Positions 3,263 to 13,614 of a DNA stretch of 32,117 nt are shown piece by piece (position 1 is the stretch's first letter; every line of letters begins with the position of its first letter). The position numbers were made by a program, and so were the translations under genes. Where the stretch lies: assembly GCA_029262255.1 (NCBI GenBank), contig JAJCZT010000145.1:1-32117 (forward strand). Reading direction: 5' to 3'. This stretch comes from Deltaproteobacteria bacterium (GTDB lineage Bacteria; Desulfobacterota_D; UBA1144; Nemesobacterales; UBA2774). The notes beneath the pieces were generated by a model. That model saw only the letters and a program-made list of their open reading frames with translations, was not told where the DNA came from and did no database searches.

Positions 3263-3685
3263 TTAATGGAAAATGAACCCGAGATTTAGTGCGAAAGGAA
3301 CATATGGATAGTAGGGCTGCGGATAATAGGCATATGGTCTGTAACCGTATCCATATCCGTATCCGTAGGGTCTGTAATATGGTCTATAGTATGAATTGTG
3401 ATGCCTGTGTCGGTAAGGTCTGTAGTATCCTCTGTTACCATAATAATGTCTGCCGCCGTGGTTATTGTTATATCTGCTGCGTTTATAGCCGTGACCGCCG
3501 TAGTTCTTGTTGTGACCGCCATAGTTTTTGTTATGACCGCGGTAGTTTCTGCCCTGACCACCGTAGTTATTCCCCTGTCCACTGTAACCATGACCGCCGC
3601 CCTGGTAATTCTTTGCAAGGCTTGTCAGTGGGGCGGCTATTACAAAGGCTAAGATAACAAAAGCTGAAATTATTAGTTTCTTCAT
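3263..3685 (-). CDS. Secreted Gly/Tyr/His-rich low-complexity protein, function unknown
   Basis: 140 residues. An N-terminal Sec signal peptide is visible (MKK, hydrophobic run to about residue 20, then LTSLAKN with a plausible AlaXAla-like cleavage near residue 24). The mature part is almost entirely Gly, Tyr, His, Asn and Arg. It has tandem NYGGHNK-type repeats in the middle, an RPYYRPYGYGYGYGYRPY segment, and a short hydrophobic end (VPFALNLGFIFH). There is no Cys. Glycine/tyrosine-rich exported proteins of this type can be structural or surface components, and His-rich repeats can bind metals; neither is shown here. A Shine-Dalgarno TAGGAGAA precedes the ATG. The repeat composition also yields long open frames on the other strands, which are shadows. 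A terminator follows. Expression is probably monocistronic. Confidence 0.7.
   Translation of the reverse strand: MKKLIISAFVILAFVIAAPLTSLAKNYQGGGHGYSGQGNNYGGQGRNYRGHNKNYGGHNKNYGGHGYKRSRYNNNHGGRHYYGNRGYYRPYRHRHHNSYYRPYYRPYGYGYGYGYRPYAYYPQPYYPYVPFALNLGFIFH
3345..3368. repeat. Tandem hexamer repeat inside the Gly/Tyr-rich gene
   Basis: Four consecutive 6-bp units of the form CCRTAT/CCGTAG (CCGTAT, CCATAT, CCGTAT, CCGTAG) encode the alternating Gly-Tyr run on the minus strand. A second, longer imperfect repeat (about 24 bp, unit around TGACCGCCRTAGTT) covers roughly 3490-3600 and encodes the NYGGHNK repeats. Both could vary in copy number by slippage. Confidence 0.6.
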
Positions 3686-6529: not shown

Positions 6530-7282
6530 TCAGGTATCATCAAATTTCCAATAACTAATCTCGAAATCATTGCCTTCTGTGGCCAGAGCCGCTAGATAGT
6601 CAGAGTCAATTTCGATATTAATGAGCGACCATTTCGAATCTTTATTTTTCATTTGAATATGGTCGGTATGCTCAATATCAGGAGGGACTAATTGCAGATC
6701 AAATTCCTTAGTTGGAAGCCCTATTCCCATCCCCCTTGCTTTTGAATATGCTTCCTTGCGGGTCCAAAGAGTAAAAAAAGCCCAGTTCTTCTTCTTGTTG
6801 GGCTGTGAGTGATAAAACTCACCTTCTTCTTTTGAAAAGAACCTGCTCACAATTTTATCAGCTTTGTTTACCTTTCTAATGTATTCCACATCAATTCCAA
6901 TTTCTCTATTTTGAGTTATGGCATAAAGTGCCAGGTCCTCAGAATGAGATAAATTAAATCTTATGTTCTCCGGATGATATTCGGGGTCAATATTGGGTTT
7001 TCCGTATTTATTGTAAGTAAACCTTACTTCAGATGGAGACGCGTCTAAATAATGGCTAAGGCTCTTTCTTAACAATGAACGTGAGACTATAAACCTCATT
7101 CTATCTTTAGCTGATCTTAGTCTGGAGGCTCTTTGCTTCTCCTCTTGAGATAGGATTTCCATATGCAGCTTCTCTATATCTAAGACGGAGTCATATATTC
7201 TAGCTTTCCATATGTGGACTAGATTCTCTGATAGCTCTAAGTTTGCGGGACTGCTATCCCGGAGTTTGTTGATTTTCTTCAC
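6530..7282 (-). CDS. 4'-phosphopantetheinyl transferase, Sfp-type
   Basis: 250 residues, the two-lobed Sfp/AcpT type. It transfers 4'-phosphopantetheine from CoA to carrier-protein serines. The magnesium/CoA motifs are visible: IGIDVEYI with Asp131 and Glu133, and WTRKEAYSKA with Glu177 and the following Lys. FNLSHSED near residue 110 matches the substrate-binding histidine motif. No polyketide or nonribosomal peptide gene is in the window, so the carrier protein is unknown; it may serve fatty acid synthesis. The start is a GTG at 7282 with no Shine-Dalgarno sequence. A TATTAT hexamer lies only 7 bases upstream of it, so the true start could be downstream or the mRNA could be leaderless. Confidence 0.87.
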   Translation of the reverse strand: MKKINKLRDSSPANLELSENLVHIWKARIYDSVLDIEKLHMEILSQEEKQRASRLRSAKDRMRFIVSRSLLRKSLSHYLDASPSEVRFTYNKYGKPNIDPEYHPENIRFNLSHSEDLALYAITQNREIGIDVEYIRKVNKADKIVSRFFSKEEGEFYHSQPNKKKNWAFFTLWTRKEAYSKARGMGIGLPTKEFDLQLVPPDIEHTDHIQMKNKDSKWSLINIEIDSDYLAALATEGNDFEISYWKFDDT

Positions 7283-7392: not shown

Positions 7393-8151
7393 TTAAAAAG
7401 TTTTCCAAAAGTCGAGTCCTATAAAATCGAGAAATCTTTGTCCGTAAATATTTAGGTAGAAGAGGTTATTTGTCAGCATCAGTAAACCTACGGCTATCAA
7501 CGTTCCTCCCACTATAATTTTATATAAATTATAATGCCGCTTTATCCACCCAAAGGCAGTCAAGGCCTTAGAAAGAGCCAGTCCTGTGAGTATAAACGGA
7601 AGACCGAGTCCAATTGAGTAGACAAATAAAAGCGCGGCCCCTTTTCCCGCCCCTTCAGATGTGCTCGCGTAAAGAAGAATTGAAGCCAGTATTGGTCCAA
7701 CACAGGGTGTCCATCCAAAGCCGAAGGCTATTCCTAAAAGGAATGTGCCGGCCAGCCCCAGATTACCTTCGGGGATGTTTAGTCTCCTTTCTCGGTATAG
7801 TTGAGGAATTTTTATGACATCCATTGAAAATAAACCGAATAAAATTATTATCACCCCTGAAATTTGAAGGAGCAGCACCTTGTTTTCCTGGATAAAATTG
7901 CCCACAAATGAGGCGCCCGCTCCAAGGGAAACAAATACAAATGAAAATCCAAGTACAAAAAGCAGACTCGGGAGGAATATCTTGGTTGCTTTTCCTTCCA
8001 TTCCCCCATCTGTAAGTTCTTCAAATGACATTTTTGAGACCATTGAGACATAGCCCGGGATTAGTGGAAGGACACAGGGCGAAAGAAAAGAGATTACACC
8101 GGCCAAGAAAGCGAACAGCCAGCTTACTTGTACTACTTCAGAGGGGTTCAT
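7393..8151 (-). CDS. CcdA-like thiol-reductant transmembrane protein
   Basis: 252 residues with about six membrane segments, DsbD/CcdA transmembrane family. It passes electrons from cytoplasmic thioredoxin across the inner membrane to a periplasmic partner. The two conserved cysteines are present in SPCVLPLIPGY (Cys26) and FGWTPCVGP (Cys150). The start overlaps the stop of the upstream TlpA-like gene by 4 bp (ATGA), which indicates translational coupling and suggests that lipoprotein is the electron acceptor. In other bacteria such pairs support cytochrome c maturation. Here they close the minus-strand run that begins with arsR, so a role in keeping arsenic-binding thiols reduced is possible but unproven. 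Confidence 0.88.
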   Translation of the reverse strand: MNPSEVVQVSWLFAFLAGVISFLSPCVLPLIPGYVSMVSKMSFEELTDGGMEGKATKIFLPSLLFVLGFSFVFVSLGAGASFVGNFIQENKVLLLQISGVIIILFGLFSMDVIKIPQLYRERRLNIPEGNLGLAGTFLLGIAFGFGWTPCVGPILASILLYASTSEGAGKGAALLFVYSIGLGLPFILTGLALSKALTAFGWIKRHYNLYKIIVGGTLIAVGLLMLTNNLFYLNIYGQRFLDFIGLDFWKTF

Positions 8152-8672
8152 TCGATAATTTCCTTTAAGTAACTTTTGAATTTTTTCTCCGCTTCATCGC
8201 CTAAAAAAGATCCATAATGTTTTACGATTATATTTCCATTTTTATCTATAAAGAATGTTGCGGGCAGCGCAACGACTCCGTACGAGTTTGAAGTTTTTCC
8301 CGATGGGTCGTACAGGTTGATATATGAAATTCCAAGCTTGTCCATAAATTTTATGGCGCTATCCTTATCGTCCATAACATCAATTCCTATAAAAATTACC
8401 CCTTTGTCTTTATACTCTCTCCAGGTCTTTTCAAAAAACGGCATCTCCAGTTTGCATGGACCGCACCAAGTTGCCCAGAAATTTACTACAACAGGTTTAC
8501 CTTTGAAGTTTTCAAGGCTTATTTCCTTCTTCTCTTTAACCGATTCGAGTGAAAAGTTTTTGGCTAAAGGAGGCCCAAGATCTGCGTTAGATGCCCCTGT
8601 TTGCTGATCGCATGATGCTATTAAAAGCAGTAGACTTAAAAAAGTTATAGTTATTAAGGTTTTATTTCTCAT
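8148..8672 (-). CDS. TlpA/ResA-like thioredoxin-fold lipoprotein
   Basis: 174 residues. A lipoprotein signal peptide ends in the lipobox LIAS-Cys21. The residue after the cysteine is Asp, which in Enterobacteria keeps lipoproteins in the inner membrane. The mature part is a redoxin/TlpA domain with FWATWCGPC (active-site Cys70 and Cys73) and the cis-proline loop [10 protein letters not shown]. The predicted role is a membrane-anchored periplasmic disulfide reductase, recharged by the CcdA-like protein encoded immediately downstream (4-bp overlap). The PiT transporter gene ends 47 bp upstream on the same strand. The target protein is not identified by sequence. Confidence 0.9.
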
Positions 8673-8719: not shown

Positions 8720-9847
8720 TTAATTTATGATCCAAAAAATAATGTACGCCAGAAGGGCTGCTACGGGAAGAGTAATAATCCAGGCAAAAATCATCTCTAG
8801 TACAGTCCTCCATTTAACAGTTTTCTTTCCATGTTTAAGTCCAATTCCGAATATGGCACCGCTTGATACATGAGTAGTTGAGACCGGCATGCCAAACCGA
8901 GATGCTAAGGTAACGAGAACTGAAGTTGTGAGGTTGGCCGCAAAGCCCTCTTGCGAAGTCATGGGAGTAACTTTCTCTGAAAGTGTTTGTGTTACTTTTA
9001 GTCCGGCTAATATGCTTCCCATGCCCATGGCAATTGCGACAATTATGAATGAAGTTGAGATCGGCAGATGCGCGCCGAGCGCTCCCGCCCCCAATGCAAG
9101 GGCAGCAATTTTAGGGGCGTCATTTAATCCTCGAGCAAAGCTGGCCATTGCTGCTGATAGCCAATGTAAAATGTCCAGAACCTCAAATTTATGAGAAGAG
9201 TCCAGAGATTGTTCACAATTTTCTTTTTGAGATGCCATCACTTTTGTTTCTGGAAGTGTTGCTACCTGTGACAAGGTTGCAGCAGATTCCCCTATGTTTG
9301 CTCTCAATGTCACGGGTTCTTTAACCTCAAGACATAAACAGTAGCGATGAAGACGAGAGGAAAGTCTTATGATCAATGGTGTAATAAGCCAGGAAATGCC
9401 CAATGCCAATAAGGGGCTAAATAATAGAGGAAGGAATATTTTCATTCCTAAAAATGACCATATTATCCCGTCAAAACCCACTGCTGCTATGCCTGCTCCG
9501 CATATTGCGCCTGCAATCGAGTGAGTTGTCGAGACCGGAAGCCCGGTTCTTGCCGTAATAATTACCCAGGCGAAAGCTCCTAAACTAATAGCTATTGGAA
9601 AGCTCTGATTTAAATCGATTGTAGATTTTATAATTCCATCCGCTGAGAATGTTCTTACTAATTCAAGTGCAAATACCGATGCAATAAGTCCGCCCACTAC
9701 AGTCCATACGGTGCCCCATATTATGGCTTTTCTATAACTTGTAACCCCGCTTCCAACCAATGTGGCAATCCCTTTGGAGACATCGTTTGCGCCGTTTGCA
9801 AATGAAAGTAGAAAGACAGCTGCAACCAACAGATAAATAATTAACAT
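8720..9847 (-). CDS. PiT-family inorganic phosphate transporter
   Basis: 375 residues, with the two internally homologous halves typical of PiT/PHO-4 permeases. The first half has FANGANDVSKGIATLVGSG and GLPVSTTHSIAGAICGAG. The second has FARGLNDAPKIAAL and GMPVSTTHVSSGAIFGIG. A cytoplasmic loop of about 70 residues with a CLC motif separates them. It would import phosphate with a cation; E. coli Pit proteins also take up arsenate. Its ATG overlaps the 3' end of the glycosyltransferase gene by 7 bp, so it is translationally coupled to the arsenosugar genes. The link to arsenic is from context only. It is shorter than E. coli PitA (about 500 residues), as in many other phyla. Confidence 0.9.
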   Translation of the reverse strand: MLIIYLLVAAVFLLSFANGANDVSKGIATLVGSGVTSYRKAIIWGTVWTVVGGLIASVFALELVRTFSADGIIKSTIDLNQSFPIAISLGAFAWVIITARTGLPVSTTHSIAGAICGAGIAAVGFDGIIWSFLGMKIFLPLLFSPLLALGISWLITPLIIRLSSRLHRYCLCLEVKEPVTLRANIGESAATLSQVATLPETKVMASQKENCEQSLDSSHKFEVLDILHWLSAAMASFARGLNDAPKIAALALGAGALGAHLPISTSFIIVAIAMGMGSILAGLKVTQTLSEKVTPMTSQEGFAANLTTSVLVTLASRFGMPVSTTHVSSGAIFGIGLKHGKKTVKWRTVLEMIFAWIITLPVAALLAYIIFWIIN

Positions 9848-10485
9848 TTGCCCTCCGCAGTTCTACCAAAACTCCGAGTTTGAGCGTTTAAGTCATCCAG
9901 GGTGTCGATATCCTTTAAGGTTTTTAGTAACTCATAATTAAGTTTCTTCTCTTTTATCCTTTCAAGTGTTTGATTGAGCACACGGTCAGTGCTCCACTCT
10001 ATCTCCCGGAAGATTTCGGGCATGTGGCTATTTAGTCCCAACAGGTAATAACCGCCGTCCTCGGCCGGGCCCAAGACTACGTCTACATTGTTAAGAGAGC
10101 TGATTGCTTGAGTTATCGTTTTGGATGAAACATCAACACAGTCAGTACCTATAATGACCGCCTTGTCAGACCCGGAAGAAAAAACCTGTGCGAACGCATC
10201 AGCCATTTTGTCTCCAAGGGTTTCACCGGCCTGAGGAGTTATTGGACATTGTTTGTCTCCAAGCCAGTTCCTGATCTCGTTTTCTTTCTCAGGCGGATCA
10301 TAGAAAATAATTGTACGATAACTGCCGGCATCTAAGAGATTCTCGATGATTTCTTTTGACATTTCTGAGTAAATTTCTGCCGCTCTCAGGGCCCCTACAT
10401 CCTTTGCAAGCCTGGTTTTTACTTTTCCGGCTTCCGGGTATTTGAGGAATATGATAAGAGTGTTTTTTTTGGTGTTATTGGTCAT
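9841..10485 (-). CDS. Arsenosugar biosynthesis glycosyltransferase, TIGR04282-type
   Basis: 214 residues, GT-A fold of the DUF2064/TIGR04282 group commonly found beside arsS. Visible motifs are an N-terminal FLKYPEAGKVKTRLA nucleotide-binding segment, IIGTDCVD (DxD-like metal site) and LGPAEDGGYYLLGL. In arsenosugar loci this family is proposed to act after ArsS, on the dimethylarsinoyl ribose. The stop codon lies inside the start of the PiT gene (7-bp overlap) and arsS ends 39 bp upstream, so it belongs to the ars operon. No convincing Shine-Dalgarno sequence is seen before the ATG. Outside an ars context the same fold could be a general sugar-phosphate nucleotidyl/glycosyl transferase. Confidence 0.82.
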   Translation of the reverse strand: MTNNTKKNTLIIFLKYPEAGKVKTRLAKDVGALRAAEIYSEMSKEIIENLLDAGSYRTIIFYDPPEKENEIRNWLGDKQCPITPQAGETLGDKMADAFAQVFSSGSDKAVIIGTDCVDVSSKTITQAISSLNNVDVVLGPAEDGGYYLLGLNSHMPEIFREIEWSTDRVLNQTLERIKEKKLNYELLKTLKDIDTLDDLNAQTRSFGRTAEGKC

Positions 10486-10524
10486 TGGCTTTGGTATATG
10501 GAAATGTGATTTGGCTTTAGGAAA

Positions 10525-11562
10525 TCAAGCCGTTGCGCCGCCGCAGCTACTTCCGGAACCGGCAGTACACCCAAAACAATGGGATCCGAACATTATTTTT
10601 CTACTCAGTAGTTTTTGGTAATCAAAATTATAGATGGTCATAGGTTCATGGTCAACTACAATATCCATCTCGAGCATTTGGTTGAAATCACAGTCGTATA
10701 TTCTCCCGTCGTGACTAACGCTTATCAGGGAGCGGCACATTACCCCTTGTGCTGAGGAAGGATTAAAGGCGTCTACCAACTTAGTCATATAGTCATCGTA
10801 GACATCTAATTTTTTTAATTGCTGTTTGAATCTATTGATAGGCATATTGGTAATTACAAAGAGGTTATTAAATTCTATGGCGTATTTTTTATTAAGCTCG
10901 CGTTTAAAATCTGCCTCCAGGCTTTGTTGTGATGCGGGAAGGAATGCGCCTACCGGATTATAGACGAAATTTAAAATCAGTCCCGTCCCCTCTTTTCCAA
11001 ACCCCTGTGCGTTAAGTAGCAAGATTGACTCAATACTCTTTTCAAATACGCCTTGGCCCCTTTGTTTATCTGTGAAGTATTCCTGGTAATAGGGAAGCGA
11101 AGAGATAACCTCTACTTTATTTTCCGCATAAAATTCAGGCAGATACTCCTTGCTCTCACCAGTTGCGGGGTTACCGTCCAATGTGACGGTCAGATTGTGT
11201 CTTGCCATCACATGTTTGTCTAATTTTCTTGCCTCGGTAACCAGGTAATCAAAGTGGGGATTTAATTCTGGCGCCCCGCCTGTAATATCCAGTTTTTTTA
11301 TCGAATCATTTAACGCGAGTATTTCAAGACAGCGCTCCACCGATTTTAAATCCATTTGCTCTTTTCTTTTAGGTGAGGCGTCCACATGGCAATGAACGCA
11401 AGTCTGGTTACATAGTTTTGTTATATTGATTTGGAGCGTTTCTATTTTTTGCGCAGCGAGATCAATGTTTTTCTGAGCGAGGGTTTTGTAGAAGTCATAT
11501 TTAGCTTCATCCCCTCTATCTTGGGCAATATCTCTTTGCTTAAGAACAGTAACTTGTGACAT
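10525..11562 (-). CDS. arsS: Arsenosugar biosynthesis radical SAM protein ArsS
   Basis: 345 residues. The radical SAM cluster motif CxxxCxxC is LCNQTCVHCH (Cys51, Cys55, Cys58), followed by DASPKRKE and the LDITGGAPELNP strand typical of ArsS. The C-terminal half carries the DUF3641-like domain with LNFVYNPVGAFLP, FNNLFVITNMPINRF, a Cys in VMCRSLISVSHDG, YDCDFNQML, and a cysteine-rich end (GSHCFGCTAGSGSSCGG) that may hold extra clusters. Known family role: coupling the 5'-deoxyadenosyl group of SAM to dimethylated arsenic, the committed step toward arsenosugars. The gene sits between the peroxidase-like gene and the glycosyltransferase in the standard order. Confidence 0.93.
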   Translation of the reverse strand: MSQVTVLKQRDIAQDRGDEAKYDFYKTLAQKNIDLAAQKIETLQINITKLCNQTCVHCHVDASPKRKEQMDLKSVERCLEILALNDSIKKLDITGGAPELNPHFDYLVTEARKLDKHVMARHNLTVTLDGNPATGESKEYLPEFYAENKVEVISSLPYYQEYFTDKQRGQGVFEKSIESILLLNAQGFGKEGTGLILNFVYNPVGAFLPASQQSLEADFKRELNKKYAIEFNNLFVITNMPINRFKQQLKKLDVYDDYMTKLVDAFNPSSAQGVMCRSLISVSHDGRIYDCDFNQMLEMDIVVDHEPMTIYNFDYQKLLSRKIMFGSHCFGCTAGSGSSCGGATA

Positions 11563-11624
11563 TAAAACTCCTGTTATCTTATTAAGACCGTTTCCTGTTT
11601 GGTCTTAATTATATATACGAAGAA

Positions 11625-11960
11625 TTAAAGCGCTCCGTTTCTTTCTAGCGCATTATGCATTTGAATTCCGTGAATTAACGTAATCCCCGCTTCCATAGAT
11701 GCTGCTACATGAATAGCTTCGGTCATCTGCTCCGGATCGGCTCCTGACTCCAGGCACTCCGTAGTGTACGCGTCGATGCAGTAAGGGCATTGTTTGACGT
11801 GTGAGACGGCAAGAGCGATCAGGGCTTTTTCCCTTTTTGAAAGAGCGCCGTCTTCCCCTACCGCCGAATTGTAGTAATCAAAGAATTTCTTCATCAAATC
11901 TTTGCTAAACTTTCCCATTTCAGGAAAGCGTTTTAAGTCCTTTGAGTCAAAATAATCCAT
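11625..11960 (-). CDS. Arsenosugar biosynthesis-associated peroxidase-like protein (CMD/AhpD fold)
   Basis: 111 residues of the carboxymuconolactone decarboxylase/AhpD-like family. The redox CxxC is QCPYCIDAYT (Cys58 and Cys61). AhpD-type enzymes usually have a histidine four residues after the second cysteine; here that position is Tyr65, so classical AhpD peroxidase chemistry is doubtful. Its place between arsM and arsS (34 and 62 bp gaps) is the usual position for the ArsS-associated member of this family. Its step in the pathway is unknown; a thiol-redox role with methylated arsenicals is plausible. The ATG follows a Shine-Dalgarno-like GGAGGC. Confidence 0.88.
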   Translation of the reverse strand: MDYFDSKDLKRFPEMGKFSKDLMKKFFDYYNSAVGEDGALSKREKALIALAVSHVKQCPYCIDAYTTECLESGADPEQMTEAIHVAASMEAGITLIHGIQMHNALERNGAL

Positions 11961-11994
11961 ATCTAGCCTCCGTTACCGTGTTTTATCCATTATT

Positions 11995-12969
11995 TTAACA
12001 GCAACTCTCGCTGTTGCCATTAGTAGCGCTCGGCGAGCAACAAGAGACCTCACGGGAATTCTTATCAGGCTCTAAGATTGTAAACATGCCTTTGTATGGT
12101 ATCTCTGAAAGTTTCTTAGCGGTGTCCGTGCAGACTTCAACGGCCTGGTTTCTTGGAAATACATGACCCTCTTCATCAATTATTACTTTGAAGGGACCGT
12201 TATAAACCGCGTGTTGGCCGATAAATACACAGCCGGCAGTTTTTTCAAACTTGTAGCCTCTTACCGTAATTGAGCAGAAATCTATGCTCTCAATATTTTT
12301 CCAGTATGTTTTGTTAAGCACCTCTATGCCGTAGAAACCGACCTGCTCTAAGTAAGACAAGAATTGATCCTCCGTCAAGGCGCCTGCTATACATTCTCCT
12401 AAAAGCTGCTCATTCTCTCTTATACTTTCAGGAATTTTTTGAGACGAGATGATGTCTGATACTACGATTCTACCGTGGTCTTTTAAAATTCTGATCATCT
12501 CTTTAAATACTTCTCTTTTATCAGGGGAGAGGTTGATTACACAGTTGGATGTTATGAGATCCACAGATTTGTTATCGACGGGTATTTCCTCTAGAAAGCC
12601 TTTTCTGAATTCAACAATATCATAGCCCAGGTTTAAGGAGACTTCGCTCTTGCTTTCATTAGCGACTTTGAGCATGTCATCGGTCATGTCCACACCGATG
12701 ATGTGTCCGTTAGCTCCGGTTTTTTTTGCAGCAATAAAGCAGTCTATCCCGGCTCCAGAGCCCAAATCTACTACAACTTCTCCCTGCTTTATCCCAGCTA
12801 GGCTCATTGGACTTCCGCATCCATAAAATCTCTCTATTACCTCCACGGGGATATGAGCAATGTCTTCTGTGGGGTAGCTGGTGGGACAACAAAGATCCTC
12901 CTTGGGTTCTTGCGCCGCTTTGCCGTAGTAATCTTTGACGAATTCTCTGGTGTTCTCTGACTTCTGCAT
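11995..12969 (-). CDS. arsM: Arsenite S-adenosylmethionine methyltransferase ArsM
   Basis: 324 residues. The SAM-binding motif is VVDLGSGAGID near residues 67-76, with GHIIGVDMTDDML following. The family's arsenic-binding cysteines appear as Cys51 (FYGCGSP), the SNCVINLSPDK cysteine and the GECIAGAL cysteine. Additional pairs are Cys27-Cys28 and two CC pairs at the C-terminus (SCCSPS, ESCC), typical of bacterial ArsM tails. It methylates As(III) stepwise to mono- and dimethylarsenic, the substrate for ArsS. A GGGAGG lies 10 bases upstream of the ATG. It is the first structural gene after arsR, 112 bp away, with an inverted repeat in the gap. The arsenic specificity is supported by the neighbours. 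Confidence 0.93.
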   Translation of the reverse strand: MQKSENTREFVKDYYGKAAQEPKEDLCCPTSYPTEDIAHIPVEVIERFYGCGSPMSLAGIKQGEVVVDLGSGAGIDCFIAAKKTGANGHIIGVDMTDDMLKVANESKSEVSLNLGYDIVEFRKGFLEEIPVDNKSVDLITSNCVINLSPDKREVFKEMIRILKDHGRIVVSDIISSQKIPESIRENEQLLGECIAGALTEDQFLSYLEQVGFYGIEVLNKTYWKNIESIDFCSITVRGYKFEKTAGCVFIGQHAVYNGPFKVIIDEEGHVFPRNQAVEVCTDTAKKLSEIPYKGMFTILEPDKNSREVSCCSPSATNGNSESCC

Positions 12970-13039
12970 TTATTTAAAGCCTCCCTAAATAAGTTGCTCT
13001 ATAGGAAAATATTACCTAATTTGTGTTTTTAAGAAGTAT

Positions 13040-13073
13040 TTCATTCCGATACATCTATCAATGTCGGAATGAA
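13040..13073. promoter_or_regulatory. 10-bp inverted repeat between arsR and arsM
   Basis: TTCATTCCGA (13040-13049) and TCGGAATGAA (13064-13073) form perfect 10-bp arms with a 14-base spacer, 8 bp beyond the arsR stop and about 70 bp before the arsM start. There is no U-tract after the hairpin on the minus strand, so a simple intrinsic terminator is unlikely. It could be an operator (ArsR-family dimers bind inverted repeats) or an mRNA hairpin adjusting arsR versus arsM expression. Confidence 0.4.
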
Positions 13074-13081
13074 CGGTAAAA

Positions 13082-13405
13082 CTAAGTTTCCTTTTTTCTC
13101 ATATCTATTAATTGGCTAAATTCTACGCTGCAACAATTAAAATCAAGCACTTTTCTTCTTTTGTTTTTTTGTTTATAAAATACTGGATGGAGTTTATACA
13201 TTACAAACTTCCCGTCTTTTTTGTCTATTACCAGCCCTGAGTTTCTAAGTACACCCAGATGATGTGATACCTGAGAGAAATCAGCGTTGATATTATCTGA
13301 GATCTCAGAAACTGAGGATTCTCCATTGAAAAGATATTCAAGGATTCTAAGACGGGTATTGTCAGCAAGGGCCTTTAAAACTTTAGCGCACTCTTGTGAG
13401 TCCAT
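13082..13405 (-). CDS. arsR: ArsR/SmtB-family arsenic-responsive repressor
   Basis: About 107 residues, winged helix-turn-helix. LKALADNTRLRILEYL and the recognition helix DFSQVSHHLGVLRNSGLV are typical. The usual ELCVCDL-type alpha-3 site is absent. Instead there is a C-terminal adjacent cysteine pair (FNCCSVEF), as in the type of ArsR known from Acidithiobacillus ferrooxidans, plus a cysteine near the N-terminus. I chose ATG 13405 because GGAG lies six bases upstream of it; the frame also offers an ATG at 13417 (MEHI-), which has no ribosome-binding site. It would repress the ars genes until As(III) binds. It is divergent from the HAD gene at 13615. Confidence 0.9.
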   Translation of the reverse strand: MDSQECAKVLKALADNTRLRILEYLFNGESSVSEISDNINADFSQVSHHLGVLRNSGLVIDKKDGKFVMYKLHPVFYKQKNKRRKVLDFNCCSVEFSQLIDMRKKET

Positions 13406-13614
13406 AATATGCTCCATTTAACTATTAGATGTAGCTCAAGTTTAAAAGATGCACAAAAATTCTGTCTTATCAAATATATATTTCTGTACGGTCGGTTAAA
13501 TTTGTGCTTATAGAAAACTTAAATAAAGATAAGTTTTTCTTCGGGCTTATTTTCATTTCAATATCATAATGTAGATTACTTTGTATTAACTGCCATATAA
13601 GGAATCGTAATATA

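Follow-up and report, generated by a model that had tools for sequence, protein, structure and literature searches.

Why should a run of genes apparently given over to organoarsenical synthesis end in a transporter of the inorganic phosphate transporter (PiT) family, and what would that transporter carry? The question is raised by contig JAJCZT010000145.1 (C145) of a Deltaproteobacteria bacterium of the order Nemesobacterales (assembly GCA_029262255.1), whose 32,117 nt are referred to here as the window and whose genome (G000) comprises 2.12 Mb on 187 contigs and is 93% complete. Six tightly spaced minus-strand genes run from position 13405 down to 8720 and encode, in order, ArsR, ArsM, a TIGR04169 protein, ArsS, a TIGR04282 protein and the PiT. 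We read this run as an ArsR-controlled, arsenosugar-type operon that has no recognized arsenite or organoarsenical efflux pump and in which the PiT acts as an accessory phosphate importer, and we put the probability of this reading at roughly two in three.

Profile scores, given in bits, were judged against the curated cut-offs of the NCBIfam and Pfam models. The leading gene, arsR (13082..13405), has a Shine-Dalgarno sequence (GGAG) ahead of its ATG at 13405 and encodes a 107-aa ArsR/SmtB metalloregulator (NF033788, 81.2 bits, cut-off 55; PF01022) with cysteines at C6 and at C91-C92; the vicinal CC, also encoded in relative G009, is a two-residue pair for which a third ligand was not identified. 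The arsM gene (11995..12969) encodes a 324-aa predicted As(III) S-adenosylmethionine (SAM) methyltransferase with a CC C-terminus, which aligned over its full length to solved ArsM structures (5evj, 4kw7/4fr0; E 6e-41) and matched them in the SAM-binding core and in the three cysteines of the arsenic site (C51, C143, C193). Next come an AhpD/CMD-like "arsenosugar biosynthesis-associated peroxidase-like protein" (11625..11960; TIGR04169, 158.9 bits, cut-off 120) and the predicted radical SAM enzyme ArsS (10525..11562; TIGR04167, 414.7 bits, cut-off 300; PF12345, PF04055, DUF3641 C-terminus). ArsS carries the cluster motif CNQTCVHC, of the form CxxxCxxC, which is kept in every relative of the order that was checked; it is a Cys form with no selenocysteine (Sec), and its Cys/Sec-rich C-terminus reads HCFGCTAGSGSSCGG. 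An "arsenosugar biosynthesis glycosyltransferase" (GT; 9841..10485; DUF2064; TIGR04282, 213.2 bits, cut-off 134) follows, which also matches CofC nucleotidyltransferase profiles and has 3cgx as its nearest solved structure, and the 375-aa PiT closes the run (8720..9847; PHO4, PF01384, 243.6 bits, cut-off 33.7). The gaps are 112 bp between arsR and arsM, 34 bp between arsM and the AhpD-like gene, 62 bp before arsS and 39 bp between arsS and the GT gene; the GT and PiT genes overlap by 7 bp (9841-9847), with GGAGGG directly ahead of the PiT ATG. A preliminary description of this DNA had reported the six-gene run, the 7-bp overlap and an arsenosugar-type gene set. All six genes were found in place, with coordinates and profile scores in agreement, the overlap is exact, and the scores support the gene set at the level of protein family.

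The translations of the window contain no arsB, acr3, arsC or arsP, as that description had said, and a genome-wide search detected neither ArsB nor ArsP. The sole Acr3-like match in the genome, on contig C24, was rejected as a PanS/BASS-type protein (37 bits versus a cut-off of 282.8). The same search found two arsC genes: one of the glutaredoxin type on C29 (TIGR00014, 108.2 bits, cut-off 106.05) and one of the thioredoxin type on C82 (locus L291, 5621-6046), which lies between pstB and phoU in a pstS-pstC-pstA-pstB-arsC-phoU cluster and scores 132.9 bits with TIGR02691, under the cut-off of 174.3, while displaying the motifs CTHNSARSQ and CDNAKQSCP. The end of the glutaredoxin-type gene occurs on two contigs with identical translation (C29:356-679 and C159:4-108), probably as an assembly overlap. 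With two arsC genes and no efflux gene found, arsenate reduction is therefore provided for and efflux is not. The earlier statement that the run is not classical efflux detoxification thus holds as far as the ArsB, Acr3 and ArsP pumps are concerned, but has to be set against the two arsC genes. At the level of sequence, deliberate synthesis of organoarsenicals, which that description had thought possible, and detoxification look alike. The genome encodes one further PiT protein, which is CysP-like and adjoins an APS reductase; this leaves the operon PiT as the genome's only PiT that is unlikely to be a sulfate permease.

Comparison with relatives, namely members of the same family and genus (G001-G007, G009-G011 and G013-G015), a sister family of the same order (f4) and two small-genome genera of the order (g9 and g10), separated a stable core from variable ends. 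The block arsM-AhpD-arsS-GT occupies one conserved chromosomal site across the family, which argues that the locus is not a chance assemblage; it is flanked by ManC-HAD on one side and by ResA-CcdA-PPT-malic enzyme-CDF on the other, and the same syntenic block occurs on a contig named Candidatus Dadabacteria (L005). Conservation of gene order within the order was dropped as evidence of function, since the whole neighborhood is static. The slot between the GT and ResA genes holds a PiT in the window genome, G006 and G013 (broken by contig ends in the latter two), a PiT shortened by an in-frame internal deletion in G001 (L113, 1992-2333) and a complete pstSCAB in G009, and is vacant in G002, G003, G004, G007, G010, G011 and G015. 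Thus, among the 12 assembled GT-ResA junctions of the family, seven are empty and one is decayed; G005 and G014 end at a contig edge. At the other end, arsR is intact in the window and G009, has a near-intact frame in G001, is a pseudogene upstream of arsM in G006 (L114) and a remnant in G003, and is absent from G002 and G005. Taken together, arsR and the PiT gene are accessory and decaying in the genus, and arsM, arsS and the GT gene form the core.

The replacement in G009 bears most directly on what the slot transports. There, pstSCAB begins 5 bp after the GT gene (L119, 10909-14326), with PstC at 249 bits (cut-off 196) and PstA at 241 bits (cut-off 193). Outside the order, arsM-(arsR)-arsS loci of Nitrospira likewise end either in a PiT (L025, L035, L051, L073) or in pstSCAB (L016, L020); these loci resemble that of the window in having ArsM, ArsS, mostly ArsR and a terminal phosphate importer, but have no AhpD or GT in the run, an ArsM of another branch and, in two cases, Pst for PiT. 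PiT and Pst are unrelated transporter types whose common substrate is phosphate, with arsenate as a contaminant. Because pstSCAB replaces the PiT in the same place, the slot most likely serves phosphate import rather than arsenate or organoarsenical uptake, and the PiT gene probably encodes a dedicated phosphate importer; where the preliminary description had left the choice between phosphate and arsenate uptake, the exchange favors the former. A phosphate importer also lies among the arsenic genes of the Halomonas GFAJ-1 island, where the Pst is reported to be highly phosphate-specific (PMC5930303), although the arsenic route of that island is efflux (acr3, mfs-gapdh) and not arsenosugar synthesis.

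The window PiT was used as a query against 387 genomes, with separate plasmid searches using PiT and ArsS. The genome search returned 11 matches outside the order, to which one plasmid match of the same kind (Acinetobacter) was added. In a tree of 54 PiT proteins, these outside matches, the members from the order and the ArsS-linked PiTs formed one clade of 27 with support of 100/100. Within flanks of ~1.4 kb, 19 of the 27 clade members, and none of the 27 other PiTs, immediately adjoin ArsS, ArsM, a fusion of a radical SAM (rSAM) enzyme with ArsM (described below) or TIGR04282; the rows are mutually related, so p-values for this linkage overstate independence. Five clade members had come from ArsS searches and were therefore biased toward linkage, for which reason we retested the 12 PiTs found outside the order by the PiT search alone: seven are linked versus 0/27 (Fisher 5e-5). 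Two genomes with unlinked clade PiTs (G125, G293) encode an rSAM-ArsM fusion elsewhere. In G110, a second PiT, from outside the clade, lies ~2 kb away from the locus. Common to the clade are the residues R239, P245, H228 and N305 (numbered as in the window PiT). In addition, the inter-repeat loop of 21 of 26 members, versus 0 of 27 others, has a CxC with another cysteine 35-56 residues further along (C170/C172/C211 in the window), a three-thiol set that may resemble As(III) sites, for example the one in the plasmid R773 ArsR. Both PiT half-signatures and the STTH motifs are largely retained, the signatures reading GANDVSK and GLNDAPK in the window as against the GANDVAN type, with variants clade-wide. 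In an AlphaFold model of the window PiT (mean pLDDT 78; loop 43-74) the CxC lies in a short strand and C211 beside another, and the only good fold match is TmPiT (6l85; TM 0.76).

A PiT neighbor is not a general trait of ArsS loci. That idea was dropped after a survey of 80 such loci, in which only five had a PiT and two a Pst beside ArsS; the plasmid search with ArsS also returned loci without PiT. Other ArsS loci hold TIGR04283, DUF547, TVP38/FAD and at times a purine or methylthioadenosine (MTA) phosphorylase. The plasmid island of Acinetobacter portensis has the order arsS-TVP38/FAD-DUF547-TIGR04283-TIGR04282-methyltransferase-PiT, with mtnP. Like the window, it encodes ArsS, TIGR04282 and an ArsM-like methyltransferase, and its PiT belongs to the clade of the window PiT; it differs in possessing TIGR04283, DUF547, TVP38/FAD and an MTA phosphorylase and in having no ArsR in the run. 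This island (L287) is located on the mobilizable plasmid pJNE5-X3_NDM-1, near transposition genes.

In the sister family f4, the same chromosomal site is occupied by a gene for a ~840-aa PqqD-radical SAM-SPASM-ArsM fusion (L193 3163-5688, L194 6534-9065, L195 193-2703, L196 6054-8555), with TIGR04282 and PiT behind it and neither ArsS nor AhpD at the site; in G022 the flanks are HAD on one side and ResA-CcdA-ME on the other. The GT-PiT junctions are tight in four f4 genomes, ranging from a 13-nt overlap to a 4-nt gap. Genomes G018, G028 and G032 of this family gave no ArsS match, and G022, G030 and G034 gave only weak radical SAM matches. Beyond the order, fusions were found in nine genomes or more (L206, L207, L210, L267-L272), several adjoining TIGR04282, TIGR04283, DUF547 or TVP38/FAD, the accessory genes that also accompany ArsS; none of the NCBIfam models fits the fusion protein over its entire length. 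The window ArsM is 67-70% identical to the fused domains of f4 and 56-62% identical to those of unrelated families, versus at most 47% to free ArsMs found in the same searches, and the ArsM tree nests it among fusion domains (bootstrap 96/97, 97/96). An origin by fission of such a fusion was not retained as certain, since an AU test allows the fusions as a separate clade (p 0.24). Compared with the window, then, the f4 loci keep the site, an orthologous ArsM domain, the GT and the PiT, and have a different, ArsM-fused radical SAM enzyme in place of ArsS and AhpD. The simplest reading is that ArsS plus AhpD and the rSAM/SPASM half are alternative parts of one locus type, each predicted to form the C-As bond, which would make the fusion a second candidate enzyme for that step. 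The converse situation is met in g10 and g9 (1.2-1.9 Mb), where ArsS is kept in 13 of 14 and 2 of 2 genomes, respectively, and these 15 genomes gave no ArsM match at E<=1e-15; the loci read (L128, L129, L131, L132) have AhpD-ArsS-GT at the same site with the cluster motif intact. Such genomes may import methylated arsenic, or their ArsS may have another role, making them a test case for the natural substrate of ArsS.

Several observations weigh against the reading proposed at the outset. The best profile for the window ArsM, PRK11873, scored 243.3 bits, under its cut-off of 263, as did the ArsM of a fused relative (249.9 bits). Most genomes of the genus and of the family have no PiT in the slot, and it is hence dispensable; this is the want of conservation among relatives that the earlier description had itself named as counting against the PiT as part of the module, yet PiTs belonging to this clade turn up again next to ArsS/ArsM in several further phyla or families. 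PstS and PstB of G009 fall below their NCBIfam cut-offs, and its Pst cassette shares 57-68% identity with those of Nitrospira, so that both may go back to a single mobile cassette and not to two separate replacement events. The PiT family also includes sulfate carriers (CysP), and the substrate is thus not fixed by family. Finally, the window holds neither TIGR04283 nor a nucleoside phosphorylase or hydrolase (the rest of the genome was not searched for these), so that "complete", as the locus had been called, was too strong a word.

As we envisage the operon, arsenate would enter together with phosphate and be reduced by ArsC, one arsC being part of the pst-phoU cluster; ArsM would methylate As(III) to dimethylarsenic, ArsS would attach a 5'-deoxyadenosyl group to it, and the TIGR04282 protein and enzymes encoded elsewhere would turn the arseno-nucleoside into an arsenosugar. 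To our knowledge, no genes have been assigned to the steps after ArsS. Arsenic would induce the operon, and the PiT so made would maintain phosphate entry despite arsenate and might also supply phosphate to cleave the arseno-nucleoside. An extended version makes phosphate a co-substrate: a purine/MTA-type phosphorylase would split the arseno-adenosine made by ArsS to arsenoribose-1-phosphate, the CofC-like TIGR04282 protein would use a nucleotide to activate this ahead of sugar transfer, the PiT or Pst linked to ArsS would feed the step, and the thiol triad of the PiT loop would sense trivalent arsenic. Phosphorylases of this type require phosphate, and what ArsS makes is, like MTA, a 5'-substituted adenosine. 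The clade-wide PiT/Pst linkage and the CofC similarity agree with this scheme, as do phosphorylases at seven of the 80 ArsS loci, tightly inside the ArsS run in L030 (1867-2679), L077 (2733-3548) and L078 (1922-2740) and present also at L076, L061, L056 and L052, and the MTA phosphorylase adjoining the ArsS-PiT run of the Acinetobacter plasmid; we nevertheless consider the scheme unlikely in this full form.

The PiT could instead import arsenate to feed the pathway, the cell gathering arsenic on purpose. PiTs generally admit arsenate, this one lies in an arsenic operon, and two arsC genes are available; set against this are the pstSCAB occupying the slot in G009 and Nitrospira, the phosphate specificity reported for an arsenic-island Pst (PMC5930303) and the loss of the PiT where arsM-arsS-GT remain. 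Arsenate import under ArsR control without an efflux pump would, moreover, be self-harming unless the arsenosugar is useful, and we find such a role quite improbable. Our doubt is as strong for transport of an organoarsenical, whether product export or methylarsenical uptake, through a thiol triad binding trivalent arsenic: the clade-specific residues, the triad and the want of a known arsenical exporter in the genome speak for it, but exchange with a phosphate ABC importer, the largely kept half-signatures and STTH motifs and the fold match to TmPiT do not. That the product is no arsenosugar at all, and that ArsS, AhpD and GT have a non-arsenic role, is suggested by the 15 relatives in which ArsS was found and ArsM was not, with AhpD and GT present and the cluster motif intact in the loci read; since imported methylarsenicals or a diverged methyltransferase could serve those lineages, and ArsM and ArsR are intact in the window, we hold this to be very unlikely. 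Least probable in our view is an incidental adjacency, the PiT being a housekeeping phosphate transporter in a static gene order: the order-wide conservation around the locus and the loss of the PiT in most of the family fit, whereas unrelated families and the Acinetobacter plasmid also have a PiT of this clade next to ArsS/ArsM. Phosphate import accessory to arsenosugar synthesis thus remains our preferred reading.

In kind, the window locus is a further case among known arsenosugar-type loci. It resembles the Synechocystis ArsM-ArsS pathway, whose ArsS was characterized by Cheng et al. (2021), as cited in PMC12159101, in its ArsM family, an ArsS equivalog above cut-off and the TIGR04169 and TIGR04282 proteins. 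It differs in having a PiT and in having neither TIGR04283 nor a nucleoside-cleaving enzyme in the locus; its ArsM (172.8 bits, cut-off 400) is also of another type than the arsenosugar ArsM of NF038099. In the open-access literature we found no paper containing both "arsenosugar" and "inorganic phosphate transporter", none joining arsM with radical SAM and SPASM, and none that deals with the fusion or with a PiT at an arsenosugar locus. The recurring phosphate-importer slot offers a concrete, cheap hypothesis on what the pathway needs, and, if our reading is true, surveys that count only arsM/arsS miss some bacterial organoarsenical makers.

Upstream of arsR lies a box, TGCATCTTTT-N9-CTACATCTAAT (13424..13453, minus strand), that also occurs upstream of arsM in G002, G003 and G005, even where arsR is absent or degraded, and is probably the promoter or control element of the operon. 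Between arsR and arsM, a perfect 10-bp inverted repeat, TTCATTCCGA-N14-TCGGAATGAA (13040..13073, minus strand), was found where shuffled sequences gave an expectation of 0, and a shorter form occurs in G006. Scans for sigma-70 promoters and terminators gave no more matches than shuffles did. Downstream of the PiT, genes for a ResA-like lipoprotein thioredoxin and a CcdA/DsbD-type membrane protein (7393..8672, minus strand) recur in the family and most relatives of the order, with or without PiT, and probably lie outside the arsenic module. Beyond these, the minus strand encodes an Sfp/HetI-type 4'-phosphopantetheinyl transferase (6530-7282; HetI, 191 bits, under cut-off), unaccompanied in the window by any evident cluster of carrier-protein genes, and a secreted-looking protein with abundant Gly/Tyr/His/Asn repeats (3263-3685).

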